Source of the DNA: a virus
IMG/VR virus record: IMGVR_UViG_3300022707_001565
Coordinates: 1 to 52,788 of that record
Reading direction: 5' to 3' (one strand)
DNA length: 52,788 nt
Every line of letters begins with the position of its first letter. Position 1 is the first letter of the stretch. Below are positions 11,425-35,862 of the stretch, in pieces. The notes under the pieces are model-generated. The model was not told the DNA's origin. It saw only the letters and a program-made list of their open reading frames with translations, and ran no database searches. The position numbers were made by a program, and so were the translations under genes.

Positions 11425-11451
11425 TTTACTTTCACAATTACGCTATATGAT
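11425..11451 (+). promoter_or_regulatory. Promoter-like element 1 (TTTACTTT-N13-TATGAT)
   Basis: TTTACTTT at 11425-11432 and TATGAT at 11446-11451, spaced by 13 bases, 25 bases before the start of the 20-residue gene. The 20 bases CCAAAATAGTTGTTTACTTT (11413-11432) recur exactly at 35824-35843. Read as a standard promoter it is TTGTTT-N18-TATGAT. Part of a seven-member series. Confidence 0.6.
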
Positions 11452-11476
11452 CTAATTCAGATAAAAGGAAAACATA

Positions 11477-11539
11477 ATGCTCGCTGCTTTCATCCTCATT
11501 TGGATACTTATCATCTTCACCATCATGGCCTGCACATAG
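11477..11539 (+). CDS. Hydrophobic micropeptide, 20 aa
   Basis: ATG 11477 to TAG 11537-11539, preceded by AAAAGGAAAACATA. The peptide is MLAAFILIWILIIFTIMACT, one membrane-spanning helix and nothing else. It is the first reading frame after promoter-like element 1 and ends 9 bases before the next gene. Very short, so a leader peptide or chance frame cannot be excluded. Confidence 0.4.
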   Translation: MLAAFILIWILIIFTIMACT

Positions 11540-11548
11540 GAACCAACC

Positions 11549-11755
11549 ATGCACCCAGACGCCTTAGAGCCCCGCACTGACAGAAAATTCCGCTTGACTT
11601 TTACCTCAGGCAAATCGCATATCATCTGGGCAGAAAGTGAAGAGCACGCGCTTTACAGAGCATCAGTTGAACAATGGCTCCAGCCTTATGGTCCCGTCAA
11701 TTACGTTGAAGAAATCGGAATCCCTAGCACAGAAAGAAATGACAGATGCGCATAA
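11549..11755 (+). CDS. Hypothetical protein, 68 aa
   Basis: Starts MHPDALEPRTDRKFRLTFTS. A beta-rich opening is followed by a helix with SEEHALYRASVEQWL. This F..TF.SG...I.AESEEHAL..A layout is seen in small phage proteins of unknown role. The ribosome site is weak (AGGAACCAACC). The stop overlaps the start of the 58-residue gene. Confidence 0.6.
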   Translation: MHPDALEPRTDRKFRLTFTSGKSHIIWAESEEHALYRASVEQWLQPYGPVNYVEEIGIPSTERNDRCA

Positions 11756-11922: not shown

Positions 11923-11933
11923 AGGAATAAAAG

Positions 11934-12131: not shown

Positions 12132-12140
12132 GGAGCAACC

Positions 12141-12341: not shown

Positions 12342-12343
12342 GC

Positions 12344-12553
12344 ATGAAAATAGAATTCAACAAGAAAAATTTCGCCTGCGTGACTGTAGTCATTGATGGG
12401 ACAGGTATTGGCAGGATTACTTTAACTGTTGATGGGTATGTATTTTGGGATCTGCTCCCTGAATTTGCCCTTGGCCAGATAGAATTAGAAATAATATTGA
12501 GACAGATAAAGGAATTGAATAAACATTTAAACACTGACCACCCACCAAAATAA
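12344..12553 (+). CDS. Hypothetical protein, 69 aa
   Basis: Starts MKIEFNKKNFACVTVVIDGT behind TAGGGGCTAAGC. Predicted beta strands are followed by a C-terminal amphipathic helix (IELEIILRQIKELNKHLN). No family recognised. Last gene before promoter-like element 2. Confidence 0.6.
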   Translation: MKIEFNKKNFACVTVVIDGTGIGRITLTVDGYVFWDLLPEFALGQIELEIILRQIKELNKHLNTDHPPK

Positions 12554-12557
12554 AAGC

Positions 12558-12584
12558 TTTAACTTAAAAATAACGCTCTATAGT
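12558..12584 (+). promoter_or_regulatory. Promoter-like element 2 (TTTAACTT-N13-TATAGT)
   Basis: TTTAACTT at 12558-12565 and TATAGT at 12579-12584, in the 55-base gap before the gene at 12609. One mismatch to the TTTACTTT form and the same 13-base spacing. Confidence 0.5.
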
Positions 12585-12608
12585 CAAATTCAATTAAAGG
12601 AACTAAAG

Positions 12609-12824
12609 ATGAAGATCCAAAAAATAATCTCTCAACATCGCAGAGACTTCCAAGCTATATATGAATGCGAGCATTGCAGCCACACACATAAAGGCTCAGG
12701 CTATGACGATACAAATTTTCACCAGAATGTAATTCCAGATATGGAATGCCCTGAGTGTGGTAAAAAAGCTCCAGAGGATAATAGGCCATTGGCTCCAAAA
12801 TATCCTGATGGGTTGACAGTTTAA
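12609..12824 (+). CDS. Small zinc-ribbon-like protein, 71 aa
   Basis: Start set by AAAGGAACTAAAG. Contains CEHCSHTH near residue 20 and CPECGKK near residue 47, the two-knuckle layout of a zinc ribbon, with a His-rich linker. Begins MKIQKIISQHRRDFQAIYEC. Such phage proteins can bind nucleic acid or host polymerase, but the target cannot be inferred. The stop overlaps the next start (TAATG). Confidence 0.6.
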   Translation: MKIQKIISQHRRDFQAIYECEHCSHTHKGSGYDDTNFHQNVIPDMECPECGKKAPEDNRPLAPKYPDGLTV

Positions 12825-13057
12825 TGAAAACAATTGCAGGCATCCCAACAGAATTAATACTCCAATCAATAGCTGCTCAGCTGGCCAGGCTGGATGATAA
12901 AGTCCAAGGTGAATTCTTTAATACATTCTGTAATGAATTGCGAATCAACTGTGTAACAAATTACAATGCATGTATTCAATTAAGAAACGCTCAAAGCTAT
13001 ATAGAAGAAAATAATCAAGAGCTGTTGGGCCACATGCTTCCAAGTGAAGGGGATTAA
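12824..13057 (+). CDS. Hypothetical helical protein, 77 aa
   Basis: Starts MKTIAGIPTELILQSIAAQL. All-helical and moderately acidic, with three Cys. One-base overlap with the upstream stop and 2 bases from the next start. No family recognised. Confidence 0.6.
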   Translation: MKTIAGIPTELILQSIAAQLARLDDKVQGEFFNTFCNELRINCVTNYNACIQLRNAQSYIEENNQELLGHMLPSEGD

Positions 13058-13059
13058 AG

Positions 13060-13788
13060 ATGGGACGTGAAATAAAAAGAGTAGCATTAGATTTTGAATG
13101 GCCACCCAACCAGATTTGGAAAGGCTATTGGAATCCTTATAGCGGATTAAAATGCAGCACCTGTGATGGCTCAGGCATGGCACCTGAATATAAAATATTA
13201 AGCGATGGCTGGTATAATATAAATTGGTGCTATGAAATAACCCAAGATGAAGTGCAAGCTCTTTGGGATGATGGCAGGCTCAGAGATTTTGAAAATAAAA
13301 ATAATGAAGTCCCAACCGCAGCTGAAGTTAATGCATGGGCGCGAACAAATGGCATGGGCCATGATGCTATTAATAAATATATATGTGTTGACCAGCGAGC
13401 AAAACGCCTTGGCATAACAGAAAAGAAATGCAAATGGTGTGGTGAAGATGGAGAATTGTGGCCCAGTGAAGAAATTAAAACCCTAGCAGAAAACTTTAAA
13501 CATATAGAACCGCCTGAAGGCGAAGGATATCAAATGTGGGAAACAACAAGCGAAGGCTCACCACAATCGCCTGTATGTGAAACGCCAGAAGAATTAGCGC
13601 ATTGGTTAACAGATAATAAAGCATCAGTGTTTGGATATGACACAACAACATATGAAAATTGGTTGGCATTTTGCAAAGGCCCTGGATGGGCTCCAGATTT
13701 AATTGTTAACATTCCAGGCAAAATACAAAGCGGCGTTGATGCCATGGCAGAGAAAGACCGAGCTGTTAAGCTAGGGGATATGCCATGA
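13060..13788 (+). CDS. Conserved-type phage protein with two Cys knuckles, 242 aa
   Basis: Begins MGREIKRVALDFEWPPNQIW. Residues 32-39 (CSTCDGSG) and about 124-131 (CKWCGEDG) are CxxCxGxG-type zinc knuckles separated by about 90 residues with many Trp/Asp. Proteins that start with a R.PLDFDWP-like motif and carry these knuckles occur in many siphophage early regions and have no assigned role. Zinc binding is inferred from the cysteines. It overlaps the 41-residue gene by ATGA. Confidence 0.65.
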   Translation: MGREIKRVALDFEWPPNQIWKGYWNPYSGLKCSTCDGSGMAPEYKILSDGWYNINWCYEITQDEVQALWDDGRLRDFENKNNEVPTAAEVNAWARTNGMGHDAINKYICVDQRAKRLGITEKKCKWCGEDGELWPSEEIKTLAENFKHIEPPEGEGYQMWETTSEGSPQSPVCETPEELAHWLTDNKASVFGYDTTTYENWLAFCKGPGWAPDLIVNIPGKIQSGVDAMAEKDRAVKLGDMP

Positions 13789-13910
13789 CTAAGAAAACAA
13801 CACAACAAGCTTGTCAAGATTTATCTGATGCATGGGATAATTTTATTAAAGTCCTAGCAAAAGAAATAAGCAGACCAATCATATTTTTATTTATCAGGAA
13901 TAAAAGATGA
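13785..13910 (+). CDS. Small hypothetical protein, 41 aa
   Basis: Reads from ATG 13785 (ATGA overlap with the previous stop, AGGGGATATGCC upstream) to TGA 13908-13910, which overlaps the next ATG. Begins MTKKTTQQACQDLSDAWDNF and ends with a hydrophobic-basic IIFLFIRNKR. It fills the gap exactly with overlaps at both ends, good evidence that it is translated. No family recognised. Confidence 0.55.
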   Translation: MTKKTTQQACQDLSDAWDNFIKVLAKEISRPIIFLFIRNKR

Positions 13911-14107
13911 CTAAGAAAAAAAGGAATCTCCACACTCCATGGCACCCTGCTTTACAAACCATGCGAGAGGATGAAAACTTTGCACCTTACTGTATGGAAT
14001 GTCCTGGATTAAGGCGCATGGTAAGAGTTGATTTTGATACTGCCAACTGCAGTATGTGCGGTGAAACATATTCATTAAAAGAATATAACCCTAGCTCAGG
14101 GAGATAA
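13907..14107 (+). CDS. Small zinc-ribbon-like protein, 66 aa
   Basis: Start set by CAGGAATAAAAG. Contains CMEC near residue 29 and CSMC near residue 48, the Cys pairs of a zinc ribbon. Begins MTKKKRNLHTPWHPALQTMR. The first 13 bases (ATGACTAAGAAAA) repeat the start of the preceding 41-residue gene, possibly a local duplication of the initiation region. Confidence 0.6.
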   Translation: MTKKKRNLHTPWHPALQTMREDENFAPYCMECPGLRRMVRVDFDTANCSMCGETYSLKEYNPSSGR

Positions 14108-14109
14108 TC

Positions 14110-14295
14110 ATGACCACTTGCCCCACGTGTAATGGTACTGGCTCAACAGGATCAACTGGTGGCTGTAAAGAATATAGAGCACAGATAAGGTGCTGGACCT
14201 GTAATGGCACTGGCAGAGATACATGGGATGATTTTATGACAACTAAACATGGCGCTAATTGGCGCAACATTATATGGGATGATCATCATGATTAA
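14110..14295 (+). CDS. Small protein with DnaJ-type zinc knuckles, 61 aa
   Basis: Contains CPTCNGTGSTG at residues 4-14 and CWTCNGTGRD at about 28-37. These are two CxxCxGxG motifs as in the DnaJ Cys-rich domain, too few for a full DnaJ module (which has four). Probably a compact zinc-binding fold. The C-terminus is Trp/Asp/His-rich. Starts 2 bases after the previous stop with GGGAGATAATC upstream. Confidence 0.6.
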   Translation: MTTCPTCNGTGSTGSTGGCKEYRAQIRCWTCNGTGRDTWDDFMTTKHGANWRNIIWDDHHD

Positions 14296-14461
14296 AGCTT
14301 CAAAACTTAAAAGATTGTTGCATCAAATACCAGATGATGCTGAAGTATACGCTTATGAAGGGGAACAGACAGGCATTGTTATTAAACGTGATTACGAGTT
14401 GTGGTTCATTGGTTGTTATGATTCTAAAGAAAAAGATACATACACAGAAGGATTTGAATAA
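14288..14461 (+). CDS. Hypothetical protein, 57 aa
   Basis: ATG 14288 (after GGGATGATCATC) is preferred to the in-frame ATG at 14249, which has no ribosome site and lies deep in the previous gene. Begins MIKASKLKRLLHQIPDDAEV. The L..LL..IPDDAEV.AYEGE start is common in small phage proteins of unknown function. One-base overlap with the next gene. Confidence 0.55.
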   Translation: MIKASKLKRLLHQIPDDAEVYAYEGEQTGIVIKRDYELWFIGCYDSKEKDTYTEGFE

Positions 14462-14748
14462 TGATTAAATTATTATGCATCAATGACTATTTCCCTAGCA
14501 ATTGCGACAGACCGTGGATGCCAATAGAAGGGGGAATATACACTGCATCAATTATAAAAGGCAGGCAGGTTACATTAATTGAAGATGAACTTATCGAACG
14601 ACCTGGAAAGTCAGATAGCGTTGGACGCATAGCATTCCATAATGGTCGCTGGCCATTCAGATCCAACCGTTTTGTCGATATTACAACTATTGCTAAATCT
14701 GAATCACACGCAGCTTATGCACAAGAGAAAATAAAATCTGATGTCTGA
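14461..14748 (+). CDS. Hypothetical protein, 95 aa
   Basis: Begins MIKLLCINDYFPSNCDRPWM. A beta-rich small domain with GGIYTASIIKGRQVTLIEDE suggests an SH3-like barrel, as often seen in small phage proteins; no family confirmed. The stop overlaps the next start by 8 bases. Confidence 0.6.
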   Translation: MIKLLCINDYFPSNCDRPWMPIEGGIYTASIIKGRQVTLIEDELIERPGKSDSVGRIAFHNGRWPFRSNRFVDITTIAKSESHAAYAQEKIKSDV

Positions 14749-15025
14749 CACGTTGCGTGGGCATCCTATTTATCAAGACGATAATGGTGATTTTAGATTC
14801 TGTGATGATGATACATTAACGGTTGAAAACTGGTTTAATAGACCGTGTGGGCATTGCGGAAAGTATGGAAACAGTAACACGGGGTTGCCCGATCCATGCT
14901 TGGGTGTCTTAGATGGCGTCACGAATGCATGCTGTGGCCATGGAGATCCTGGCCAGGCATATATTTGTTTTGAGAATGGACTTAGAATAGAAGGATTTAA
15001 AATAGATAGCAAAAGGATTAAATAA
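14741..15025 (+). CDS. Conserved-type Cys-rich phage protein, 94 aa
   Basis: Starts MSDTLRGHPIYQDDNGDFRF and has RPCGHCGKYGN, DPCLGVLDGVTNACCGHG and a final FENGLRIEGF. This arrangement of CGHCG, PCLG and ACCGHG recurs in many phage and prophage small proteins of unknown role. It probably binds zinc. One base before the next start. Confidence 0.65.
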   Translation: MSDTLRGHPIYQDDNGDFRFCDDDTLTVENWFNRPCGHCGKYGNSNTGLPDPCLGVLDGVTNACCGHGDPGQAYICFENGLRIEGFKIDSKRIK

Positions 15026-15511
15026 ATGAAAATTGAAATCAGCAACACCAATTTTCATAATGAAGATAAGACTAAGCAATGGAAACAATATCTGGTTAGT
15101 ATAACTGATCGTAACGAAATAATGAATTGCAAAGAGAAGCGTACATTCTGGCTTAATGGCCCTGATGAGATGCGACAGTTGGCAAATGGATTATTAAAAA
15201 AGGCTGAAGAATTAGACCCAATAACTGAACTTCTATCCCCAACAACTAAAGCCCTACAGAATATACATGAAAATAACGCAGCAATTATTGCAGCAAGCGA
15301 ACAGGATGCAGTCCTAAGAACAGGCGCTGGCCATATGGCAGTAAAACTAAAACCAGTTATGCGCCCCAAAAACAGATCCAGAGGTTTGCTTGCACAAATA
15401 AATAATTCAAATGATCTTGGAAAGCAGCGTCTTGTATTAAACACAGATATGCATGGCAGCTCATGCATTAAACTGCTTGATGCACACAACAATTTAATAG
15501 GATACATCTAA
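15026..15511 (+). CDS. Hypothetical protein, 161 aa
   Basis: Begins MKIEISNTNFHNEDKTKQWK. No recognised motif. The N-terminal half looks like a beta domain, the centre is a helix-rich Ala/Glu region and the end (LVLNTDMHGSSCIKLLDAHN) is again beta-like. Overlaps the next start by one base. Confidence 0.6.
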   Translation: MKIEISNTNFHNEDKTKQWKQYLVSITDRNEIMNCKEKRTFWLNGPDEMRQLANGLLKKAEELDPITELLSPTTKALQNIHENNAAIIAASEQDAVLRTGAGHMAVKLKPVMRPKNRSRGLLAQINNSNDLGKQRLVLNTDMHGSSCIKLLDAHNNLIGYI

Positions 15512-16215
15512 TGGCCAAAACAAGAGAATTAATTATCCCTGTGCTTGATGATATTATGAGTGATTTTGATCGCTATTACATTAGGCACCCAACTGCGGAT
15601 GGTAAAAAGCCTGAGCCATATTTATTATTGAGTGAACATGATTTTTGTAGGCTACGCATAGAAGCGCGCTCTGCATTTGTGCAACAAGTTCATGATGAAT
15701 ATAATATGAAAGCACAAGAGTTCAATGGGTATAAAATCCTGAGAACTAGCAAACGGGTCGAACCACAAATGGTAATTAAATGCCCTAGCTATACCGAAAG
15801 AGGCAGGAGTGTTAATATTAAAATAGAAGGCAGTTTGTGGCCAACGCAAAGCGCCATGAAACAATTTGCAAAGGCTGTTGGCGAAATTGATCCAGAGAAA
15901 TATGAACTGGACCCTCCCAACATCAGACCAGATAGACAGAATAACCTAGCTAAATATCCAACGGATAAAAACTTTCTTGAGATGGTAGATAAAGAAAAGA
16001 AAGCCAAAACTACTGAAATAATATCTGGTGGGCACCGTGGTGGCAAAACAGCCAAAATCCAGCAACACAGAGATGAAATTAAAAAATCAATATCCAATCG
16101 CTTCAGATCTATACTAGACAAAACGAAAAACAAAGTACCAAAGCAGCCCCCGTGGTGGGTCCGTATGCTCAAGCTCAAACACAAAAAGAAACATGAGGAC
16201 AATTACGACAAATGA
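15511..16215 (+). CDS. Hypothetical protein with P-loop-like segment, 234 aa
   Basis: Begins MAKTRELIIPVLDDIMSDFD. Near residue 177 the stretch SGGHRGGKTAK formally fits G-x4-G-K-T, but the surroundings are hydrophilic with no beta strand before it and no visible Walker B, so nucleotide binding is doubtful. The C-terminus is strongly basic (MLKLKHKKKHEDNYDK). No family recognised. Last gene before promoter-like element 3. Confidence 0.6.
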   Translation: MAKTRELIIPVLDDIMSDFDRYYIRHPTADGKKPEPYLLLSEHDFCRLRIEARSAFVQQVHDEYNMKAQEFNGYKILRTSKRVEPQMVIKCPSYTERGRSVNIKIEGSLWPTQSAMKQFAKAVGEIDPEKYELDPPNIRPDRQNNLAKYPTDKNFLEMVDKEKKAKTTEIISGGHRGGKTAKIQQHRDEIKKSISNRFRSILDKTKNKVPKQPPWWVRMLKLKHKKKHEDNYDK

Positions 16216-16235
16216 CCATCAGCCTTAATTAATAC

Positions 16236-16262
16236 TTTACTTTCAAATCAACCCGCTACCCT
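16236..16262 (+). promoter_or_regulatory. Promoter-like element 3 (TTTACTTT-N13-TACCCT)
   Basis: TTTACTTT at 16236-16243, then 13 bases, then TACCCT at 16257-16262. The upstream 17 bases AATTAATACTTTACTTT (16227-16243) recur exactly at 24833-24849. It sits in the 75-base gap before the gene at 16291. Confidence 0.5.
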
Positions 16263-16290
16263 AGGTAGCTCACCCAAAAAGGAATAAAAG

Positions 16291-21447: not shown

Positions 21448-21973
21448 TGAAACAATTAATAAATGGCTTGATGAACACAAAGCTGAATATATAACACTAC
21501 CTTACCACCATGTGCAGAAAGCTCATTATTTAATCGCGGGCGAATATGAAAAGCTAAATGCATTCCCTAGTAGAGTTGAAGCCATCGATGATTATTTAAA
21601 AGATAAGTATGAGAAAATCAAACAGGCATGCTTTGATGAGAAAATGATAACCTTATCAACAATGGCCACATTGAAAGTGCCATTGCTTGATGAATATATT
21701 AAAGGTGAAGATATTATTGGAGCCATAAATAATAATATTTATAATGCACATGGTGTCCAAGGGCAGGTATTAACAACGGATGTTGAAGATGATGCTTTTG
21801 AGTTTTTGGACAGTGCAGTCAAAAATTTGGTTGCTACCTTTATGACCCGATTTAAAATAAAAACACATGTCCATATAATGTGCCACCCAAGACAACATGC
21901 AATGGGCACAGAAGAAATGCAGGATTTTCTATTAAAGTATGAAACAAAAAAGAAGCTGGCCAGTAATGAATAA
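21437..21973 (+). CDS. Hypothetical protein, 178 aa
   Basis: Begins MNPNETINKWLDEHKAEYIT. Mixed alpha/beta, with a C-terminal His-rich stretch THVHIMCHPRQHAMG near 148-160 that could bind a metal. No family recognised. Last gene before promoter-like element 4. Confidence 0.6.
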   Translation: MNPNETINKWLDEHKAEYITLPYHHVQKAHYLIAGEYEKLNAFPSRVEAIDDYLKDKYEKIKQACFDEKMITLSTMATLKVPLLDEYIKGEDIIGAINNNIYNAHGVQGQVLTTDVEDDAFEFLDSAVKNLVATFMTRFKIKTHVHIMCHPRQHAMGTEEMQDFLLKYETKKKLASNE

Positions 21974-21980
21974 ATAATGC

Positions 21981-22007
21981 TATCTTTTCCTGCAGACTGT
22001 GTAACAT
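21981..22007 (+). promoter_or_regulatory. Promoter-like element 4 (TATCTTTT-N13-TAACAT), weak
   Basis: TATCTTTT at 21981-21988, 13 bases, then TAACAT at 22002-22007, in the 63-base gap before the gene at 22037. The poorest match in the series (two changes in the upstream box), kept because spacing and position agree. Confidence 0.35.
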
Positions 22008-24817: not shown

Positions 24818-24841
24818 TTGATCAGGTGCCCAAATTAATAC

Positions 24842-24868
24842 TTTACTTTATAAAATTACGTCAATACT
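24842..24868 (+). promoter_or_regulatory. Promoter-like element 5 (TTTACTTT-N13-AATACT)
   Basis: TTTACTTT at 24842-24849 and AATACT at 24863-24868. Shares 17 upstream bases exactly with element 3. Only 8 bases separate the -10-like box from ATG 24877, too short for a leader carrying AGGAG. If it is a promoter, it serves a later start or the downstream genes. Confidence 0.45.
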
Positions 24869-25265: not shown

Positions 25266-25868
25266 GTGAGCAATACAGATATTGATGTACTTGAAGATGC
25301 GAAGCCTGCAGGATCTGAAGATTTATTACAAAAAATTTATGATTATGCTGATAAAATGCTGGCTGTTGGCACACGCATAGAAAAAGGTGTAATATTGTTA
25401 AAAGAATTGGGTGATGATTATAAAGAAATTGAAACACACATATTACCTGAATTGATGGCTGAAGCTGGCATGAAGGAATTTACTACTGAAGCAGGTAAAT
25501 TTAAAATCAAAGATATATTAAAAGCATCATTGCCAAGCAAAGGTGCTATTGATAAAGCTAAGGGTGAAGAAAGAGACAAGCTTGAAGATAGACTTGCCAG
25601 AGCATTAGTCTGGTTGCGAGAGCACGAAGCTGAATCTTTAATCAAAAATATTATATCTGCAGATGTTGGTAAAGATAATGAGATTGCTGATAAAATAGTT
25701 AAATTTCTAACTAAAATTAAAGCTGTGTACAAGAGAGATGAAAATGTTAATGGTAATACGTTATCATCTTACATTAAAGAACAAATTGGCGCTGGTGTTG
25801 AAATTGATTTTGAATTGTTTGGCGTGTTTTCCGGTAAACAAGTTAAGGTGACCAAGGCCAAAAAATAA
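25266..25868 (+). CDS. Conserved-type phage replication-region protein, 200 aa (GTG start)
   Basis: AAAGGAATTAAA stands directly before GTG 25266, so this start is preferred to ATG 25251. The pattern is that of a family common beside phage replication genes: a helical N-terminal half (LLQKIYDYADKMLAVGTRIE), then ILPELMAEAGMKEFTTEAGKF, ALVWLREHEAESLIKN, and a final VEIDFELFGVFSGKQVKVTK. No catalytic residues are evident and the role is unknown. Adjacent to the single-strand-binding candidate. Confidence 0.65.
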   Translation: MSNTDIDVLEDAKPAGSEDLLQKIYDYADKMLAVGTRIEKGVILLKELGDDYKEIETHILPELMAEAGMKEFTTEAGKFKIKDILKASLPSKGAIDKAKGEERDKLEDRLARALVWLREHEAESLIKNIISADVGKDNEIADKIVKFLTKIKAVYKRDENVNGNTLSSYIKEQIGAGVEIDFELFGVFSGKQVKVTKAKK

Positions 25869-25871
25869 ATG

Positions 25872-25898
25872 TTTACTCTAGTAAAAATGAATTATAAC
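25872..25898 (+). promoter_or_regulatory. Promoter-like element 6 (TTTACTCT-N13-TATAAC)
   Basis: TTTACTCT at 25872-25879, 13 bases, TATAAC at 25893-25898, 40 bases before ATG 25939. One mismatch in the upstream box; good -10-like box. Confidence 0.55.
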
Positions 25899-25938
25899 AC
25901 AGGACCAAAATAAGCCTACTATCCAAGAAAGGACACTC

Positions 25939-26760: not shown

Positions 26761-26769
26761 TTAAAACTT

Positions 26770-26841: not shown

Positions 26842-26853
26842 GAAAGGAATAGC

Positions 26854-27066: not shown

Positions 27067-27092
27067 AGCACATTTAATAAAAGGAATGAAAG

Positions 27093-28052
27093 ATGAAGAT
27101 ATTGGGCGCAGGCATGGCAGGATTAATCGCTGCAAATTTATTACACAGATATAATCTCCTAGTGCTAGAAAAAGCAGACAACTTGCCAAAAAACCATGCT
27201 GCAGTTTTGCGATTTAGAACTGATGAAATTTCTAAGGCTACGCAGATCCCATTTAAAAAGGTCCATGTGTCCAAGTCTATTTATTATGATCGCAAGCATT
27301 ATAATGAATCCAATTTATTCTTTGCCAATATGTATTCAATAAAAGTGACTGGCAGGATATTAACACGCTCAATTATTAATTTGAATGATTGTGAGCGTTA
27401 TATTTCACCACCAGATTTTATTCAGCAGTTATCTAAGGGTGTTGAAATATGTTTTGGAGTAGAGATTGGCAATGATTTATTCAATCACAGATATCCTGAC
27501 AAGATTATTTCCACACTGCCTATGCCATTGATGATGGATATGTGTGGCACTTCTCTTGCAAAACGAAATTTTACGTCAAATCCTATTTGGGTTGCATCGT
27601 GCACCATTGATAATCCTGAGTGTGATATTTACCAAACTGTCTATTGTCCAGATAAAACAAAAGATTGGTACAGGGCAAGTATAACAGGAAGCGAATTAAT
27701 TGTTGAGTTTATTACCAAGCCGCATGATTTTCACAATATGAAGTCTGGACAGAATGATCACGACCAACAACATCATTTTATAAATATGCTTGAGAAAATA
27801 TTTGGTATTGAAGTTGATATGGTTTCAAATATGAAATTCAAAGAGCAGCCTTATGGAAAGATTGCCCCAATGAATGAGGAACACAGAAAGGAATTCATCC
27901 ACCATCTAACTACAGAATATGGCATTTATTCCCTGGGACGTTTTGCAACGTGGCGCAATTTATTACTTGACGATATTGTAAAAGATGTTAATGTCATTAA
28001 GCAATTAATTGAATCAGATTCAACATATGATTTAGCAAAGGCAAATCTATAA
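27093..28052 (+). CDS. FAD/NAD(P)-binding oxidoreductase-like protein, 319 aa
   Basis: Start set by AAAGGAATGAAAG. N-terminal Rossmann dinucleotide-binding motif ILGAGMAGLIAANLL (3-17), with an acidic end of strand 2 (LLVLEKAD). C-terminal YSLGRFATWRNLLLDDIVKD resembles the FAD-contact segment of amine-oxidase/UDP-galactopyranose-mutase-like flavoproteins. Related phage proteins often precede thyX, as here with a one-base TAATG overlap. The reaction is unknown; a flavin or nucleotide substrate is a contextual guess. Confidence 0.65.
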   Translation: MKILGAGMAGLIAANLLHRYNLLVLEKADNLPKNHAAVLRFRTDEISKATQIPFKKVHVSKSIYYDRKHYNESNLFFANMYSIKVTGRILTRSIINLNDCERYISPPDFIQQLSKGVEICFGVEIGNDLFNHRYPDKIISTLPMPLMMDMCGTSLAKRNFTSNPIWVASCTIDNPECDIYQTVYCPDKTKDWYRASITGSELIVEFITKPHDFHNMKSGQNDHDQQHHFINMLEKIFGIEVDMVSNMKFKEQPYGKIAPMNEEHRKEFIHHLTTEYGIYSLGRFATWRNLLLDDIVKDVNVIKQLIESDSTYDLAKANL

Positions 28053-28873
28053 TGAAAGTTACCTTATTAAAATATACACCAGATGCTTTAGAGACATTAT
28101 TGTTCACAAAGCAAACCAGATTAAAAGTCAACCCAAATGCAATGGATGAAGTTGCTGCTTGGAGTGATGAAAAGAAAATGTCTGAGTTAGAATATATGTT
28201 GAACACTATCAAAAGCTCATGGGAATTTATTGACTACATATTTGTCATTGAAGATGTTACCAGAGCATTCACGCACCAATTAGTAAGACACAGAGCAGGA
28301 ACCAGCTTTGCTCAACAAGCGATGCGTGTTGTTGATATGTCTGGATTCAGTTATGAAACTGGGGATAGTATTGACACTGAAGAAGCACTTGAATTATACG
28401 GTGATGGCATGGATGAAATTAATGATTGTTATCAAGACCTAGTGAGTGCAGGCGTCAAGCCACAAGATGCTAGGGGCATTCTCCCCACAAATATACATAC
28501 CAACATTGTCTTTAAAGCGAATTTGCGCTGCTTACATGATATGGCGCAAACTCGATTGTGCGTTAAAGCGCAGGGCGAATTCCAAAAAGTATTTAGAGCT
28601 ATTAAAGCTGCAATGATTGAAGTTCATCCATGGACTGAAAATATGATTCAGGTTGCCTGTGCTGCTACTGGCGTTTGTAAATTCCCTACAGTACCAAATG
28701 AAGATTGTCATGTGAAGCCTTTTGTATTTAATCCAAAGACTGGTGTAGCATTTAATGGTGGGCAACCTTACACGCTGGATGAAATTAAAGTGCAATATGC
28801 CTCTGAAGAAAGAGAAATTCAACCTATTGTTATTGGCGATGATGCTGTAACTACAACTGAGAGCCAATCATGA
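28052..28873 (+). CDS. thyX: ThyX-like flavin-dependent thymidylate synthase, 273 aa
   Basis: ThyX transfers a methylene group from folate to dUMP with FADH2. The signature region is FTHQLVRHRAGTSFAQQAMR (73-92), with Arg79, His80, Arg81 as the flavin-binding RHR. Downstream ILPTNIHTNIVFKANLRCL and TRLCVKAQGEFQKVFR match the dUMP-binding second half. In the usual R-H-R-x(7)-S-x-R motif, the Ser position reads Ala90 with one extra residue before it, so the substrate-binding serine appears lost. Could be a true ThyX or a relative acting on another pyrimidine. Overlaps both neighbours. Confidence 0.78.
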   Translation: MKVTLLKYTPDALETLLFTKQTRLKVNPNAMDEVAAWSDEKKMSELEYMLNTIKSSWEFIDYIFVIEDVTRAFTHQLVRHRAGTSFAQQAMRVVDMSGFSYETGDSIDTEEALELYGDGMDEINDCYQDLVSAGVKPQDARGILPTNIHTNIVFKANLRCLHDMAQTRLCVKAQGEFQKVFRAIKAAMIEVHPWTENMIQVACAATGVCKFPTVPNEDCHVKPFVFNPKTGVAFNGGQPYTLDEIKVQYASEEREIQPIVIGDDAVTTTESQS

Positions 28874-29331
28874 GACAGTGGATAATAGTAGACATGGATG
28901 GAACAATTGCAGACTGCAGGCATAGATTGCATTTAATTAAGGATGATGGTAAGAACAGAGAGACGCGCAATTGGTTTCCATTTTTTGAGCAATTGATTAA
29001 TGATGATCCAATATGGCCAATTATTAATCTTATTAAATTATTAGCCACTCAACATCAAATATGCATAATGACAGCGAGAATGATTGAATTTAGTACAGAA
29101 ACGCAATCATGGCTCCAATGGCATGGCGTTATATATGATGAATTGTTAATGCGTCCAGCAGCAGATTTTAGAAATGATGATATTGTTAAAAAGCAATTGT
29201 ATCAAGATTCATTTAAGCAAAGGGATATGCTAAGGAATGTTGCTTTAGTTTTAGAAGATCGTAACAGGTGCGTCAAGATGTGGCGCGAATTAGGCTTAAC
29301 ATGCTTACAGGTTCAAGAAGGGAATTATTGA
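28870..29331 (+). CDS. HAD-family 3'-phosphatase, polynucleotide-kinase C-terminal-domain-like, 153 aa
   Basis: HAD motif I IVDMDGTIADC (Asp8, Asp10), motif II IMTARM, motif III Lys in DDIVKKQLY, and motif IV NVALVLEDRNRCVKMWRELG. Spacing and the closing LTCLQVQEGNY match the phosphatase half of T4 polynucleotide kinase (which removes 3'-phosphates from DNA or RNA ends). The kinase half is absent. A role in repair of nicks or RNA ends, or as a nucleotidase in the surrounding cluster, is plausible. ATGA overlap with thyX. Confidence 0.7.
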   Translation: MRQWIIVDMDGTIADCRHRLHLIKDDGKNRETRNWFPFFEQLINDDPIWPIINLIKLLATQHQICIMTARMIEFSTETQSWLQWHGVIYDELLMRPAADFRNDDIVKKQLYQDSFKQRDMLRNVALVLEDRNRCVKMWRELGLTCLQVQEGNY

Positions 29332-30074
29332 TGAGTAATATTGTTGTGACAGGGTGCACAAGCGGATTGGGCGAATTAATTGCTACAAAACTATCAGCAA
29401 ATGGGCATTATATCATTGGCATTGGGCAAGAGGCTGATTTTGATTTGCCTCACATTCATGAATATCATACAGTTGATTTAGCAAGGATGGATGCGCATGC
29501 AAAGTTGGATGCCATTGCACAAGATCACCTGGGATTGGGCCATCGCTTACTTGATTGTGTTATTAATTGCGCAGGCGTTAATATAATAAATTATCTTGAG
29601 AGCGCAACAGAGCATGACTGGTATCAAATGATGGACGTTAATGCAAAGAGCATCTTTTTAACATCCAAAGCATTCTTGTCCAATCTCAGATTAACACACG
29701 GCACCATACTCAATATTATATCAAATGCCAGCCACATGCCAATGACCTGCTCTCTAGCATACAATGCTAGCAAAGGCGCAGCAGAAATAATGACTAAACA
29801 ATTAGCTAGGGAATTAACAAAACGCCATGGCATTACTGTGTTTGGGATAAGCCCAAATAAATTAAAAGGTACAGGTATGAGTGATTCTATTGATAAACAG
29901 GTTATGGAATCGCGTGGATGGAGTTTAGAAGAAACTCAGGAATACCAGCGCAAAGGTTTATTATGCGGTGAAGAAACAGACCCAGTACAATTGGCAGAGT
30001 TCATAGGATTTTTATTAAAGAGCAAAGAGCGTCACAAATATTTAACTGGATGCATCATCCCATACGGACTTTAA
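29331..30074 (+). CDS. Short-chain dehydrogenase/reductase (SDR), 247 aa
   Basis: ATG 29331 shares a base with the previous stop (TGATG), with AAGGGAATTATTG upstream. Classical SDR features: TGCTSGLGELIA (TGxxxGxG, 7-14), CVINCAG (NAG), a Ser in NIISNASHMP, and the catalytic YNASKGAA (Tyr144, Lys148). C-terminal GYxI-like GCIIPYGL. NAD(P)-dependent oxidation or reduction of an alcohol/ketone; the substrate is unknown. An SDR is unusual in a phage replication cluster. Confidence 0.85.
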   Translation: MSNIVVTGCTSGLGELIATKLSANGHYIIGIGQEADFDLPHIHEYHTVDLARMDAHAKLDAIAQDHLGLGHRLLDCVINCAGVNIINYLESATEHDWYQMMDVNAKSIFLTSKAFLSNLRLTHGTILNIISNASHMPMTCSLAYNASKGAAEIMTKQLARELTKRHGITVFGISPNKLKGTGMSDSIDKQVMESRGWSLEETQEYQRKGLLCGEETDPVQLAEFIGFLLKSKERHKYLTGCIIPYGL

Positions 30075-30083
30075 GGAACAATC

Positions 30084-30569
30084 ATGGCCATTGAGTTACA
30101 GAAGATAGAACAGATTGCAATTTATAGTGATGATCAGGGTGAGTTGAAATCTGAGTTATCCAAACTTGGGATTACAGAATGGGTTGAAGATATTGTAACT
30201 GCTCATGGATTTGTCTTTGGTAGTGAAGAAACAAAGAGCGTGGCGCATTTATCTTTTAATTATCAACTTGGATATGAATTTGAATTGTTAACATATCTGG
30301 AAGGTGATAATTGGCACAATTCTAGACAGAGTGATGCTTATTTAAGAGGTGATTCATTCCTTAGTCACAAAGGTGTCCACGTAGACAATGCTGATGTGAT
30401 ACGACAACAGATGATTGATATGGGAATTAATATTGCACAGGAATTATGGACTGACCATCACACAAATCCTTATTTAATTGAAAAGAAAAGGAAATTTCAT
30501 TACATTGTTTTTGATACGCAGCATTTATTTGGTTTTGATTATAAAGTCATAGAGAGAATAGAAAAATGA
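30084..30569 (+). CDS. Glyoxalase/VOC-like metal-binding-fold protein, 161 aa
   Basis: Two beta-alpha-beta-beta-beta halves are visible. The first half is IEQIAIYSDDQGELKSELSK ... HLSFNYQLGYEFELLTYL; the second is SHKGVHVDNADVIRQQMIDM ... FHYIVFDTQHLFGFDYKV. These match the vicinal-oxygen-chelate fold used by glyoxalases, dioxygenases and resistance proteins. Possible metal ligands are His95 and Glu67. Starts 9 bases after the SDR, and overlaps the next gene by ATGA. Substrate unknown. Confidence 0.6.
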   Translation: MAIELQKIEQIAIYSDDQGELKSELSKLGITEWVEDIVTAHGFVFGSEETKSVAHLSFNYQLGYEFELLTYLEGDNWHNSRQSDAYLRGDSFLSHKGVHVDNADVIRQQMIDMGINIAQELWTDHHTNPYLIEKKRKFHYIVFDTQHLFGFDYKVIERIEK

Positions 30570-30940
30570 TAAATACGCCTGACATATTAAAAAAGATGGC
30601 AGAGACATATGCTGAGCGCAATGCAGTGTATGGAGACAACTTTCGCAATGTCGGCAGAATAATGATGATATTATTTCCAGAAGGATTGAACTTAGAATCA
30701 GAAAGTGATTTTACACGCTGGCACATATTTGAATTAATTGTTGTTAAGTTAACCCGCTATTCAATAAACTTTAAAAATGGCGGCCACCCAGATTCCGTGC
30801 ACGATGCTGCTGTTTATAATGCTATGCTTGAAATGCTTGACTATGAATTAACATGTGAGGATGAAGAGGAACATTCAATCTCAGCAAAAGATAAATTCAT
30901 GCAAGGCATTCGCCAGGAGATTAGAAATGATAATATTTGA
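30566..30940 (+). CDS. Conserved-type phage protein, DUF6378-like, 124 aa
   Basis: Begins MINTPDILKKMAETYAERNA. The pattern AVYGDNFRNVGRIMMILFPE, VVKLTRYSINFKNGGHPDS and VHDAAVYNAMLEML is that of a phage protein family with a conserved G-G-H-x-D-S. That motif suggests a metal-dependent helical bundle, perhaps related to MazG-type nucleotide hydrolases. The role is not established. Overlaps the exonuclease start by 14 bases. Confidence 0.6.
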   Translation: MINTPDILKKMAETYAERNAVYGDNFRNVGRIMMILFPEGLNLESESDFTRWHIFELIVVKLTRYSINFKNGGHPDSVHDAAVYNAMLEMLDYELTCEDEEEHSISAKDKFMQGIRQEIRNDNI

Positions 30941-31469
30941 CACAGAGACAACTGGACTGCCTAAAAAGAAAAACCAGCCAATGGATGAACATCCTGAGAT
31001 TGTAGAATTCGCAGCCATTAAAGTTGACTTTAATACTCTGGAACGAATAGACAGCATGGAATTCCTGTGCAAGCCAATGCGCCCAAGCGATGAAGGTGCA
31101 TTTAAAACCCATGGCATCACAGAAGAAATGCTGAAAGATGAAAAACCTTTCAAGGCGCATTATCTATGGCTGGCTAAATTCTTTTTGGGTGCGCGTTATT
31201 TAGCCGCACACAATGTAAACTTTGATGAATATATGCTCTGGACAGAATTTACACGCATGGATAAAATAACTAAATTCCCATGGCCGCCAGAGCGTATTTG
31301 TACGGTAGAAAAAAGCATGTCAATACAAAACGGGAAACGCAGCAAGCTTGATTTCCTAGTGGAACATTACCTAGGAATTAAAAAGCGTAAAGGTTCCCAC
31401 CGCGCTATGAAAGATGTTGAAGATTTATATGAAGTCATTAAATGCATGAGGGCAGATAATTTATTATAA
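30927..31469 (+). CDS. DnaQ-like 3'-5' exonuclease (DEDDh), 180 aa
   Basis: Start ATG 30927 follows CAGGAGATTAGAA; a longer frame to 30855 would overlap the previous gene heavily. Exo I IIFDTETTGLP (Asp5, Glu7), Exo II LAAHNVNFDEYML, and Exo III HRAMKDVEDLYEV with the His and Asp of DEDDh enzymes. It supplies proofreading as a separate subunit for the DnaE-type polymerase at 32969, as epsilon does in bacteria. Confidence 0.85.
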   Translation: MIIFDTETTGLPKKKNQPMDEHPEIVEFAAIKVDFNTLERIDSMEFLCKPMRPSDEGAFKTHGITEEMLKDEKPFKAHYLWLAKFFLGARYLAAHNVNFDEYMLWTEFTRMDKITKFPWPPERICTVEKSMSIQNGKRSKLDFLVEHYLGIKKRKGSHRAMKDVEDLYEVIKCMRADNLL

Positions 31470-31484
31470 TCAAAGGAATAAAAG

Positions 31485-32690
31485 ATGAAGTTGACAATAG
31501 AACAGAATGATGCGCTTAATAAAATAAGCAAATGGATAAAAAATACTGACCAGCAAGTATTTTGCTTGGGTGGTTATGCAGGCACAGGCAAAACTACAGT
31601 GCTGCAGGAATTAATTAACAATCTTGATATTGCTCCTGTGTGTTGTGCTCCAACAGGGAAAGCTGCATCAGTATTGAAAAAGAAATTGTATGGAGCAATA
31701 GATGTAAGAACTATTCACAAAGTTTTATATAATCCGCGTGATAGGTCCAAAGCAAAATTAATTGATTTGCAAGTACAAATGAGAAAAAATCCAGCTGATA
31801 AACGGATTGAAATTGCTTACAATAGAGAATTAAAAAAACAAGGTGATGTTACTTTCTCATTAAAAGATATTCACGAAGTGACGCCAAACAGAATTGTTAT
31901 CATTGATGAAAGCTCCATGGTGACAGGAACAATATCAACAGATATAATAAATACAGGGGCTAAGATATTATTTGTTGGTGATCCTGGACAGTTACCTCCT
32001 GTTGGTGATGAAGGTTATTTTAATAAAAGCAACAAAGATTTTATCCTGCAACAAATTCACCGTCAAGCCCTAGGCAGTCCAATCACTGCCCTAGCCAGTG
32101 CTGTACGATTAAATGAACTTGCGCCACCCAAGTCAGATAAAATTAGATGTGTTGGCAGAGGCGTATTACAGGATGAAGATTATTTGAATGCTGGGCAAAT
32201 ATTATGTGGTAAAAATATAACCAGAAGGAAAATGAATAAGTTTATTAGAAAGAAGCTTGGCAAATCAAGCGTGATGCCAACTGAAGGTGAGAAGATTATT
32301 TGTTTAAAAAATAAATATCAAGGGGGAGTGTCGCATTTCATCAATGGAGTGGATGCAATCACTTTATCTGATGCACGATGGGATGAAATGCTACAGTGTT
32401 TTATTTGTGTTATAATGTATGATGGAAAAGAAGTGCCTGTAGCATTTTATGATTATCATTTTAAGTTACATTATGATTCTGAAATAGAGCCAACAGACTG
32501 GCGCGAAAGAGAAGGGCAAGCAGAATTTGATTATGGATATGCAATCACTGTTCATAAATCGCAAGGCAGTGAATGGGATAATATTATAATATGTGATGAT
32601 GGATTTAAAGCGAATGATCATAGCTTCAGACGTAAATGGTTATATACTGCGATAACTCGCGCAAAGGATTCTTTAATATGGATAAAGTAA
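31485..32690 (+). CDS. SF1 DNA helicase, RecD/Dda-like, 401 aa
   Basis: Start set by AAAGGAATAAAAG. All core motifs are present: I GGYAGTGKTT (29-38), Ia CAPTGKAA (54-61), II VIIDESSM (138-145), III VGDPGQLPPVG (164-174), IV IHRQ, V YAITVHKSQGSEWD, and VI LYTAITRAKD. It is a small 5'-3' helicase like T4 Dda or RecD2, for fork progression or recombination. Overlaps the next gene by 13 bases. Confidence 0.9.
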   Translation: MKLTIEQNDALNKISKWIKNTDQQVFCLGGYAGTGKTTVLQELINNLDIAPVCCAPTGKAASVLKKKLYGAIDVRTIHKVLYNPRDRSKAKLIDLQVQMRKNPADKRIEIAYNRELKKQGDVTFSLKDIHEVTPNRIVIIDESSMVTGTISTDIINTGAKILFVGDPGQLPPVGDEGYFNKSNKDFILQQIHRQALGSPITALASAVRLNELAPPKSDKIRCVGRGVLQDEDYLNAGQILCGKNITRRKMNKFIRKKLGKSSVMPTEGEKIICLKNKYQGGVSHFINGVDAITLSDARWDEMLQCFICVIMYDGKEVPVAFYDYHFKLHYDSEIEPTDWREREGQAEFDYGYAITVHKSQGSEWDNIIICDDGFKANDHSFRRKWLYTAITRAKDSLIWIK

Positions 32691-32968
32691 TATTTGATAT
32701 TAAAGATGAATCAATTTTTTCTATAAAGTTGATGCAGCAACTTGGCTGTATGCAATTGTTGCTTTATGAATCAGTTTGGGATTTCAATTGGAATATTGGT
32801 TTATTAAAATCCTTTATAGATTTATATAAATCTGATCCCGACGATGAATATATGAATTCTATTAATTATTATAACCGTAATCTTGAGCGTAGTAAAAAAG
32901 AAATTGATGCATGGGTTTTTGGCATTGATCATATAGATAAAAAATTAAGAAATAGGCGAAAAGATTAA
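32678..32968 (+). CDS. Hypothetical protein, 96 aa
   Basis: ATG 32678 lies within the end of the helicase gene behind GCAAAGGATTC. Begins MDKVIFDIKDESIFSIKLMQ; helical, with YNRNLERSKKEIDAWVFGID and a basic end. It abuts the polymerase start with no gap, so it may be a polymerase or helicase accessory factor. No family recognised. Confidence 0.6.
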   Translation: MDKVIFDIKDESIFSIKLMQQLGCMQLLLYESVWDFNWNIGLLKSFIDLYKSDPDDEYMNSINYYNRNLERSKKEIDAWVFGIDHIDKKLRNRRKD

Positions 32969-35809
32969 ATGATCAACATTAAAGTTAGAACAGAATACAG
33001 TTTCAAATATGCCTATGGCCATCTTCAAAAGATAATTGATGCTTGTGATGAAGATTGTATGGGCATCTGTGACAGGAACAGTACATGGGGCCACGTGCAA
33101 TTCCAAAAGAAAATGAAAGAGGCAGGCAAGAAACCTATATTTGGTGTTGAGATTGGTGTGGTTAAAGATGCATTCATAAAAGAAAAACAAGGCTTTAACT
33201 ACATGAGCTTCATTGCAAAAAATAATGACGGGTTAAAAGAAATATATGCACTAGTGACAGAATCCACTAGGAACTTCTACTATGAACCGCGCTTAGATTA
33301 TTCACACATCAGAAATATATCTGAGAATGTTTTTATATTATCAGGCATACTGCCTGACTTTGATCAATTAATAAAACACATGCCAAATTTATATATCGAA
33401 TTGTGCCCTGGATTTATTAATGCACATAATGTGCCGCAATCATATAAAGATAAATTGAAATTTGTAGCAACCAGCAATAATTGTTATCCAAAAATTGAAG
33501 ATAAATTGAATTATACTGTTGCAATAAATTTTGCCAGCGAGCAGACTTATCCTCAGCATATTCTTGATGAATTTGATTGGAAAGAAATATTCCCAGGTTA
33601 TGATGTCAATTATCCTTTAACCAGAGCTAAGATTATAGCAGATCAATGCAATGCAGAATTGCCTAAAGCGCAGATGGTAAAATATCACAGTGATATTAGT
33701 TTGCATGATCTGTGTATTGAGTTGGCTCCAAAAAAGAATATTGATTTATCAGATCCAATTTATAAAGAAAGGTTTGAACGTGAAATTAAACTTATTGATG
33801 AAAAAAATTATAATGATTACTTCTTTGTTATTTGGGATATGTTACGCTATGCCAAACAACATATGCTTGTTGGTCCAGCACGCGGTAGCTCGTGCGGATC
33901 ATTGGTGTGCTTCATTCTCTCCATCACTGAAATTGATCCTATACCCTTCAGCCTTATTTTTGAGCGTTTTATTGACATCAATAGAACTGACATGCCTGAT
34001 ATTGATATTGATTTTCCTGACAATAAACGTGATATGGTTTTTGATTATGCTAAGTCAAAGTATGGTAGTGATTGTGTTGCTCGGCTTGGGACTGTGGCTA
34101 GGTTTAAGGCTAAATCAACAATTACACATGTGGCTAAACAATTAAATATTCCTGCTTGGGAAGTGAATGAATTAAAAGATGCAATCATTGAACGCAGCAG
34201 CGGTGATGCGCGTGCAACATTTTGTATAATGGATACCTTTAAAGAATTAGATATTGGTAAACGAATCATCCAAAAATATCCACACATACAAATTGCCGAA
34301 CAATTAGAAGGGCATGCAACTCATCATGGCCAACATGCAGCTGGTATAGTCGTAACAGAGCACCCTGTTAATTGGTACTGTTCTGTTAATGCACAAAATG
34401 GTGCTACTCAAATTGATAAAGATGATGCTGAAGAATTAAACCTATTAAAAATTGATGCCCTAGGATTGAGAACATTATCAGTAATACAAGATTGCCTAGA
34501 TCAGATTGGTTGGAGCAGAGAGAAAATAATGTGCTGGCCTATTGATGATGAGGGTGCATTTAAAATTTTACAAAATAAAAAGTATGCAGGGATATTTCAA
34601 TTTGAAGGCTATGCGCTACAAAGTTTATGTGGCCAGATGGTCGTGGAAAACTTTGAAGACATTTCAGCCTTGACAGCCCTAGCCAGACCAGGACCGTTGA
34701 TGAGTGGAGGCGCAGCGGAATATGTTGCGAGGCGAACAGGCAAGAAAAAAGTTGAATACATGAACAAGATGGTTGAGGAACTAACCCAAGTAACATTTGG
34801 CGTTATTATTTATCAAGAACAGGTAATGCATATTGCACGCCATGTTGGCAAAATGGAATGGGAGGATGTATCATTTTTAAGAAAAGCAATGAGTAAATCC
34901 CTAGGGAAAGAAATATTTGATAGTTACTGGGAGAAATTCAAAAAAGGTGCTTTGGAAAATGGATTGGCTGAAGATAATGCTAGAGAAATCTGGGACAGTA
35001 TTAATACGATGGGCTCATGGTCTTTTAATAGATCGCACGCAATTGCTTATGGTATGGTTTCTTATTGGACTTGTGTTCTCAAATCAAGATTTCCTATGGA
35101 ATATGCTGCTGCCTGTTTGCGTCATTCTAAAGATGATGAACAATGCATTAAATTGTTAAGGGAGTTGGTGCGTGAAGGTCACAGCTATGTTGACTTTGAT
35201 AAAGATAGATCAGAAATTAACTGGAGTGTGCAAGATGGAATATTGTATGGTGGGTTAACTGGAGTGAAAGGAATTGGATTAAAAACAGCTCAATTGATTA
35301 TGGATAAAAGAAAAGCAGGTGAAGCATTAACTGCAGCGCAACAAAATAAATTAGACAATGCAGCAACGCCTTTTAAACATGCATTCAAACGTGATGCTTT
35401 ATTCAGAGATTTAATTGAGAACCCTGAAAAATATAATATTGCTTCCAAGATAACTGACATTGCAATGATTGATGAAGATAGCAAAGGTGAATTTTTGATA
35501 TTTGGAGAATTAAAAAAGAAAGTCCAGCGTGATCACAATGAATTAAAATTGATTGCCAAGCGTAAATATAAGATGTCTGGCCAAACATTATTTTTAAATT
35601 TAACAATAGAAGATGATACAGGCCCAATCATGTGTACCATTACCAGAGATAAATATAGAAGGCTAGGACATCACATTGTAGAAAATGTTAAAGTTGGATC
35701 ATGGATAATGATCAAAGGGCGAATTGATAGTGCATTCCGATCTATCAAAGTGGCTAGATACAAGATCATTGATCCCAGTGAAGTCGATGTAAGTAGTGTG
35801 ACTGAGTGA
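32969..35809 (+). CDS. DNA polymerase III alpha subunit-like replicative polymerase (DnaE type), 946 aa
   Basis: C-family polymerase. The N-terminal PHP domain is degraded: the usual H-x-H-S-x-Y-S reads VRTEYSFKYAYG, so metal-dependent proofreading by PHP is unlikely. Palm: GPARGSSCGSLV (302-313) and the catalytic MPDIDIDFPD with Asp344/346/348. Further conserved blocks include LLKIDALGLRTLSVI and ALTALARPGPL. A helix-hairpin-helix (LTGVKGIGLKTAQLIMDK, about 760-777) and a C-terminal OB fold (about 840-930) follow. It is shorter than the E. coli 1160-residue protein, mainly at the tau-binding end. DnaQ-like and helicase genes lie just upstream. Confidence 0.92.
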   Translation: MINIKVRTEYSFKYAYGHLQKIIDACDEDCMGICDRNSTWGHVQFQKKMKEAGKKPIFGVEIGVVKDAFIKEKQGFNYMSFIAKNNDGLKEIYALVTESTRNFYYEPRLDYSHIRNISENVFILSGILPDFDQLIKHMPNLYIELCPGFINAHNVPQSYKDKLKFVATSNNCYPKIEDKLNYTVAINFASEQTYPQHILDEFDWKEIFPGYDVNYPLTRAKIIADQCNAELPKAQMVKYHSDISLHDLCIELAPKKNIDLSDPIYKERFEREIKLIDEKNYNDYFFVIWDMLRYAKQHMLVGPARGSSCGSLVCFILSITEIDPIPFSLIFERFIDINRTDMPDIDIDFPDNKRDMVFDYAKSKYGSDCVARLGTVARFKAKSTITHVAKQLNIPAWEVNELKDAIIERSSGDARATFCIMDTFKELDIGKRIIQKYPHIQIAEQLEGHATHHGQHAAGIVVTEHPVNWYCSVNAQNGATQIDKDDAEELNLLKIDALGLRTLSVIQDCLDQIGWSREKIMCWPIDDEGAFKILQNKKYAGIFQFEGYALQSLCGQMVVENFEDISALTALARPGPLMSGGAAEYVARRTGKKKVEYMNKMVEELTQVTFGVIIYQEQVMHIARHVGKMEWEDVSFLRKAMSKSLGKEIFDSYWEKFKKGALENGLAEDNAREIWDSINTMGSWSFNRSHAIAYGMVSYWTCVLKSRFPMEYAAACLRHSKDDEQCIKLLRELVREGHSYVDFDKDRSEINWSVQDGILYGGLTGVKGIGLKTAQLIMDKRKAGEALTAAQQNKLDNAATPFKHAFKRDALFRDLIENPEKYNIASKITDIAMIDEDSKGEFLIFGELKKKVQRDHNELKLIAKRKYKMSGQTLFLNLTIEDDTGPIMCTITRDKYRRLGHHIVENVKVGSWIMIKGRIDSAFRSIKVARYKIIDPSEVDVSSVTE

Positions 35810-35835
35810 ATTAAGACATATGGCCAAAATAGTTG

Positions 35836-35862
35836 TTTACTTTGACCATATGACGTTATACT
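35836..35862 (+). promoter_or_regulatory. Promoter-like element 7 (TTTACTTT-N13-TATACT)
   Basis: TTTACTTT at 35836-35843 and TATACT at 35857-35862, 31 bases before ATG 35894. Shares 20 bases exactly (35824-35843) with element 1. Read as a standard promoter it is TTGTTT-N18-TATACT. The best -10 box of the series. A 25-codon frame from ATG 35820 also crosses it. Confidence 0.65.

Follow-up and report, generated by a model that had tools for sequence, protein, structure and literature searches.

Private promoter sets are known in other phages, and activator-dependent phage promoters of the lambda CII, Mu Mor/C and P2 Ogr class combine weak -35 and -10 sequences with small phage activators that work with the host RNA polymerase. 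Among repeated sites of other kinds, stoperators keep one orientation relative to transcription. They are spread as repeated sites across the genomes of cluster A mycobacteriophages (PMC9283540, PMC6550527). T4 middle promoters are characterized by a MotA box and by sigma appropriation through MotA and AsiA (PMC2988021, PMC6755090). In these promoters, a distance of 12 +/- 1 bp separates the -10, which must be excellent, from the MotA box, (a/t)(a/t)(a/t)TGCTTtA, and promoter P46 has an ACTT centre (PMC2988021).

Here, we describe a family of six promoter-like elements in the IMG/VR record IMGVR_UViG_3300022707_001565, analysed over its whole stretch of 52,788 bases (the window; 38% G+C). An earlier note on this DNA had proposed a seven-member series, TTTACTTT-N13-TATANT, with a layout similar to that of T4 middle promoters and an activator of its own. 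From the series, a likely scheme of gene regulation can be drawn for an uncultured phage lineage, in which a divergent hub would lead to a first pair of early genes and from there to six operons with one common element.

Genome setting and position of the elements

The minus strand carries head and packaging genes (terminase, portal, scaffold and major head protein) at 1-10031 and genes for tail, holin and fibre at 38902-52780. The early and replication genes (primase-like, DnaE-type DNA polymerase, ThyX-like, helicases and exonuclease) lie between them on the plus strand at 10650-38905, and a divergent gap of 618 bases (10032-10649) separates the minus-strand from the plus-strand direction. 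No tRNA gene is present anywhere in the window. The elements and the features around the divergent gap are listed in Table 1.

Table 1. Promoter-like elements and associated early features of the window
Feature	Coordinates	Strand	Sequence	Setting
Candidate ordinary sigma-70-type promoter of the first early genes	10514..10542	+	TTGTTT-N17-TATAAT, read from the sequence	AT-rich stretch; weak evidence
First two plus-strand genes (163 and 78 aa)	10650..11370	+		only plus-strand genes 5' of element 1
Element 1	11402..11451 (-56 to -7)	+	upstream block, TTTACTTT at 11425, N13, TATGAT	opens the small early gene block from 11477
Element 2	12535..12584	+	TGACCA...CCAAAATAA...TTTAACTT at 12558, N13, TATAGT	opens 12609-16215
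Element 3	16213..16262	+	TTTACTTT at 16236, N13, TACCCT	opens 16291 onward
Element 4 (doubtful)	21958..22007	+	TATCTTTT at 21981...TAACAT	only the -46 to -34 block fits the family
Element 5	24819..24868	+	TGATCA...CCCAAATTAATAC-TTTACTTT at 24842, N13, AATACT	about 8 bases 5' of the start codon at 24877
Element 6	25849..25898	+	TGACCA...CCAAAAAATAAATG-TTTACTCT at 25872, N13, TATAAC	opens the replication block 25939-35809
Element 7	35813..35862	+	TTTACTTT at 35836, N13, TATACT	opens the SprT-like, helicase and nuclease genes 35894-38905

Architecture of the element

The full element, from -56 to -7, reads TGAC-CA-N4-GCC-N-AAAWTA-N3-S-TTTACTTT-N13-TATANT. The CA at -52/-51 is invariant in all six elements, and elements 1 and 7 have AGA, displaced by one base, in place of the TGAC start. 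These are followed by GCC-N-AAAWTA at -47 to -38, G or C at -34, TTTACTTT at -33 to -26 (exact in four copies, those at 11425, 16236, 24842 and 35836, as previously reported) and, after 13 bases, TATANT at -12 to -7. The string described in the earlier note is present but covers only half of the element, as the conserved block reaches -56; the longer identical blocks that the note saw in two pairs belong to an upstream box which it left undescribed and which is conserved in all six copies.

At elements 2 and 6, the final codons of the gene in front lie within the upstream block (at element 2, this is the 3' end of the gene at 12344-12553), and at element 3 the gene in front has the TGA of TGACCA as its stop codon. 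Three unrelated coding ends thus share the same words, which argues for a constraint on the DNA. At no element does a TTGACA-like hexamer matching at more than three of six bases stand 16-18 bp from the -10; the best -35 match is TTTACT (4/6 bases), with just 15 bp between it and the -10, or 14 bp in element 2. The -10 hexamers themselves are weak or degenerate at half of the sites (TACCCT, AATACT and TATAAC). In five of the six elements, the distance from the predicted start to the start codon is 18-34 nt, with an AAAGGA-type ribosome site between. In element 5, whose poor fit to its gene start had been recognized previously, the predicted start is 2-5 nt from the ATG, and the element as a promoter would yield an almost leaderless mRNA.

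The inner block contains an imperfect dyad, AAANTAA-N4-TTANTTT, centred at -34.5, which was the best of 26 centres tested (36 of 72 complementary pairs over the six sites, the next best reaching 29); because column shuffles equal this symmetry in 2.4% of trials, the dyad is suggestive only. Element 7 sits in a 36-bp imperfect palindrome (35817-35852) that extends the dyad to about 36 bp and is among the eight most symmetric stretches of that length in the genome, and the TACCCT of element 3 lies within the palindrome GCTACC-CTA-GGTAGC. RNA folding gave hairpins in elements 3 and 7 and no hairpin common to the six (z-scores 0.5, 1.1, -2.3, 1.6, 0.7 and -1.7).

Statistical support for a single family

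The elements at 11425, 12558, 16236, 24842, 25872 and 35836 form one family. By leave-one-out matrix, each ranks within the top seven plus-strand positions, and at most four minus-strand places score as well as any of the six. The composite pattern CA-N5-C-NN-AAWTA-N3-S-TTTACTTT-N13-TANNNT, allowing up to three mismatches, has six forward matches in the whole window, which are exactly the six elements, and no reverse match; the reversed-pattern control matches nowhere on either strand. The earlier note's statement that the series is never seen in minus-strand gaps accordingly applies to the full element, whereas a short near-miss lacking the upstream block occurs on the minus strand at 3284. 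Equal frequency inside coding sequence, which the note had named as grounds for refutation, was not observed: the 49.8 kb of coding DNA contain TTTACTTT by itself 7 times, and the 3.0 kb of gap contain it 4 times.

Information content was compared with a null of random sets of six positions in gaps. Upstream of TTTACTTT, the 23 columns carry 24.3 bits, versus 10.1 +/- 1.45 for the null (z = 9.8), and none of 4000 sets was as high. Corresponding values are 12.4 bits versus 3.5 +/- 0.85 (z = 10.5) for the box TTTACTTT and 6.4 bits versus 2.6 +/- 0.76 (z = 5.0) for the -10 columns, both of which are partly selected scores, as the box and the -10 had been picked in the earlier note. The TATAAT-like -10 of canonical sigma-70 promoters is thus recovered at block level, single sites being degenerate. 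The 13-base spacer is weakly above the null (z = 2.9), and flanks upstream beyond -57 show chance-level conservation. The upstream block is independent proof of the family, because the sites were chosen without it, the note's remark on two pairs excepted. A de novo motif search of the kind the note had suggested (width 50) scored 159, versus 116-126 in four shuffles, and put six sites in one register; these include element 4, element 1 having been masked out of the search by its gene-start call.

All seven proposed sequences exist at their coordinates, but only six belong together. Element 4 (21981) ranks 931 on the plus strand in the leave-one-out matrix, and scores -17.6 to -0.2, depending on the pseudocount, versus at least 31 for any true member of the six-site training set. 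Its -46 to -34 block is among the best 0.1-0.2% of positions, and its TGGCCA is displaced by one base; at best, it is a decayed copy of the family.

Candidate regulators

Searches of the genome for MotA_activ and MotCF (PF09114, PF09158) and for AsiA (PF09010) gave no match at E <= 1, a threshold that a very diverged MotA-type protein could escape. Some 50 of the approximately 77 predicted proteins were scanned, including nearly all of the large ones, with about 25 small genes outside the scan; among those scanned, no phage RNA polymerase or sigma factor, no repressor or integrase and no activator was recognized. Promoters for a single-subunit phage RNA polymerase were set aside, as no such polymerase is among these proteins. 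The first two plus-strand genes (10650-11370) match no known family, and an AlphaFold model of the 163-aa product of the first was uninformative (mean pLDDT 45). By their position, these two genes are candidate immediate-early regulators.

Occurrence in other phages

An exact scan of 2.9 million viral contigs, possibly not covering the records nearest the window, gave no match to the strict composite pattern. The looser pattern CCAAAATA-N4-TTTACTTT-N13-TA was found at 32 loci in viral contigs, mostly a few coding sequences repeated; a gap match in an unrelated phage (L020) was rejected as a second carrier, since its geometry is the normal TTTACT-N17-TATACT. The series was absent in a matrix scan of four relatives by DNA polymerase (L009, L051, L054 and L056; 52-56% identical). 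The closest relative, G002, whose terminase is also 57% identical, likewise lacks it; its gaps may reuse TTTGRCCA words, a hint seen post hoc and too weak to use. Two terminase relatives, MW202621 and MW202657, show no excess of the element's words, and their replication genes differ. Related-locus searches with the helicase, portal, primase or terminase alone gave no match, and a scan of genome contigs for the host returned mainly distant polymerases and no close relative.

One relative (G004, locus L054; DNA polymerase 52% identical) carries a private promoter-like series of its own, with at least five members in gaps and a common upstream sequence. Both series are phage-private, multi-copy and located in gaps, with shared upstream sequence, although that of G004 has an ordinary TTGCAA-N17-TATAAT-like geometry and an unrelated sequence. 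Because this relative has a different series, such private sets may be widespread in this loose phage group. The six-copy sequence is previously unseen, and its general kind is already known.

Proposed mechanism and alternative explanations

A phage-specific promoter class is well supported, because the elements share one register, lie only in plus-strand gaps, each open a gene block and have no -35 at the normal distance; this part of the earlier proposal holds by register, strand and position, whereas its activator has no identified gene among the proteins scanned. Whether the six are host-RNA-polymerase promoters in which a regulator-recognized block replaces the -35 is, in our estimate, evenly balanced, their transcription being predicted from sequence. 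Host RNA polymerase with its main sigma factor would use them to drive the early and replication operons, and a recognition block of about 31 bp (-56 to -26) would take the place of the missing host -35 hexamer. Of the two parts of this block, the first would combine CA (-52/-51) with GCC-N-AAAWTA (-47 to -38), and the second would be TTTACTTT (-33 to -26); the inner portion of the block may form an imperfect dyad. The block would be read by a regulator that binds DNA sequence-specifically and is most likely encoded by the phage, and that would recruit the polymerase to a mediocre -10 or reorient it there. Expression would begin with the genes at 10650-11370, which would be transcribed from the divergent region (10032-10649), and the regulator may be among their products. 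Positive control by a protein is the leading reading, with a chance of about one half, and we infer activation rather than repression. A more specific version, that a MotA-like -35 replacement has arisen independently without MotA/AsiA, with a small early protein (or pair of proteins) reading the 31-bp composite site and redirecting host polymerase to all replication operons, is put forward only tentatively. If such a regulator does replace sigma region 4 recognition without MotA/AsiA, the phage would have solved the same problem independently. The 31-bp site offers a long, defined DNA bait for fishing out a phage transcription regulator.

The elements could instead be ordinary strong early promoters used by host RNA polymerase alone, with a proximal UP element (A-rich, -46 to -38) offsetting the poor -35 (TTTACT, 15 bp) and no phage regulator. 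The C-terminal domain of the RNA polymerase alpha subunit binds around the region where the A-rich run (-43 to -38) lies, the -10-like hexamers stand at a fixed distance, and the five-member gap series of the relative G004 has ordinary geometry. Yet neither the invariant or near-invariant C-52, C-45 and G-47 nor the eight-base box TTTACTTT is characteristic of UP elements, sigma-70 is poorly served by a spacer of 15 bp, and the -10 is weak at three sites, so that we hold this explanation to be rather doubtful. It is unlikely that the elements are operators at which a phage repressor or early shut-off protein covers a weak sigma-70 promoter, the dyad being the putative binding site. Such an operator would accord with -34.5 being the best dyad centre and with the exceptional symmetry of site 7, but the symmetry is modest and is aided by an A-rich left arm and a T-rich right arm, the base at -29 is unpaired with -40 in most sites, TGACCA falls outside the dyad, and no repressor or integrase gene was recognized among the scanned proteins.

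True sigma appropriation by diverged MotA and AsiA homologues would explain why the box stands in MotA-box register (12-bp spacing) with an ACTT centre as in T4 P46 (PMC2988021). We judge it very improbable, given that MotA_activ, MotCF and AsiA are unmatched even at E <= 1, that an upstream block is present and that the -10 is not stringent. Least probable of all is that the elements are not promoters and act in the RNA between operons as terminators, RNA-processing sites or antitermination sites: they do directly follow stop codons, and two of them form hairpins, but folding shows no common structure, and the fixed spacing to a -10-like hexamer and the compact leaders with ribosome sites downstream speak against such a role.

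Comparison with known systems

As in the lambda CII, Mu Mor/C and P2 Ogr class, most of the information in the elements lies upstream of the -10, overlapping or abutting the -35; the sequence, site length and spacing are different, and no homologue of those activators was recognized here. Like stoperators, the elements are repeated, genome-spread sites with a single orientation to transcription. Unlike stoperators, all six stand at the head of a gene block and are followed by a -10-like hexamer after a constant 13 bases, and no repressor was recognized among the scanned proteins.

The T4-like layout proposed in the earlier note is borne out in the register of the box, which in all six elements is centred near -30 and lies 12 +/- 1 bp from the -10, and in that register 7 of the 8 positions of TTTACTTT agree with the MotA box. 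Relative to the consensus WWWTGCTTtA, A replaces G at -30 in all six copies, giving the P46-type ACTT centre, and G or C stands at -34 instead of A or T. The T4 pattern is not followed at the -10, which is degenerate at three of the six sites, or above the box, where conservation extends to -56 in DNA that is outside the T4 consensus. The phage has no recognizable MotA or AsiA, and it belongs to a different phage group, with tape-measure tail genes and a DnaE-type polymerase. The series was thus rejected as a true T4 middle promoter on -10 stringency, MotA and AsiA. By analogy, it is nevertheless possible that it works like one, with a phage box in place of the -35 and replication genes being served.

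Candidate control sites

Nine of the 13 copies of ACTGGGT in the whole genome (both orientations counted) lie inside the 618-base gap that separates the minus-strand head/packaging genes from the plus-strand early/replication genes, as do all five copies of AACTGGGT; with these clustered motifs, the gap is a candidate for an origin of replication or an array of operators. Within the six-member plus-strand promoter-like series, a GCTACC-CTA-GGTAGC hairpin (folding z = -2.3) spans the -10 of element 3 and may provide additional control on its operon. A minus-strand gap carries a shorter promoter-like site, TTTACT-N16-TATTAT, which lacks the upstream block and is perhaps an ordinary late promoter.

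Predicted gene products

Directly 3' of element 1 lies a hydrophobic open frame of 20 codons (MLAAFILIWILIIFTIMACT); it has a good ribosome site and likely encodes a membrane peptide. The element 6 operon includes a 70-aa protein with an AT-hook-like N-terminus, MEDKRRRGRPSEF, for which a search for a family match found none; it is a possible DNA-binding protein. Because TTTACTTTRACA... recurs at a spacing of exactly 297 bases, an unassigned 464-aa minus-strand protein seems to contain 99-residue tandem repeats.

Coordinates of the features discussed (G004 positions refer to its own contig)
Feature	Position	Strand
Promoter-like site without upstream block	3284-3257	minus
Divergent gap	10032-10649	
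Hydrophobic open frame	11477-11539	plus
Hairpin at element 3	16255-16269	
Pam3_gp32 match	24877-25251	plus
70-aa protein	26854-27066	plus
464-aa protein	42388-43782	minus
TTTACTTTRACA... copies	43566, 43269, 42972	minus
G004 gap promoter series (L134-L136)	29168, 29578, 50768, 52226, 54821	minus

Comparison with other phages

The product encoded behind element 5 matches Pfam Pam3_gp32 (E 1.4e-14), a family named for phage Pam3, whereas the primase-like protein has its nearest relatives in alphaproteobacterial phages. The distant relative G004 has its own gap promoter series, centred on TTGTTGCAAACAAATAAGTTTATTG-TATAAT; one of the sites also carries the palindrome TTGTTTGCAAACAA.
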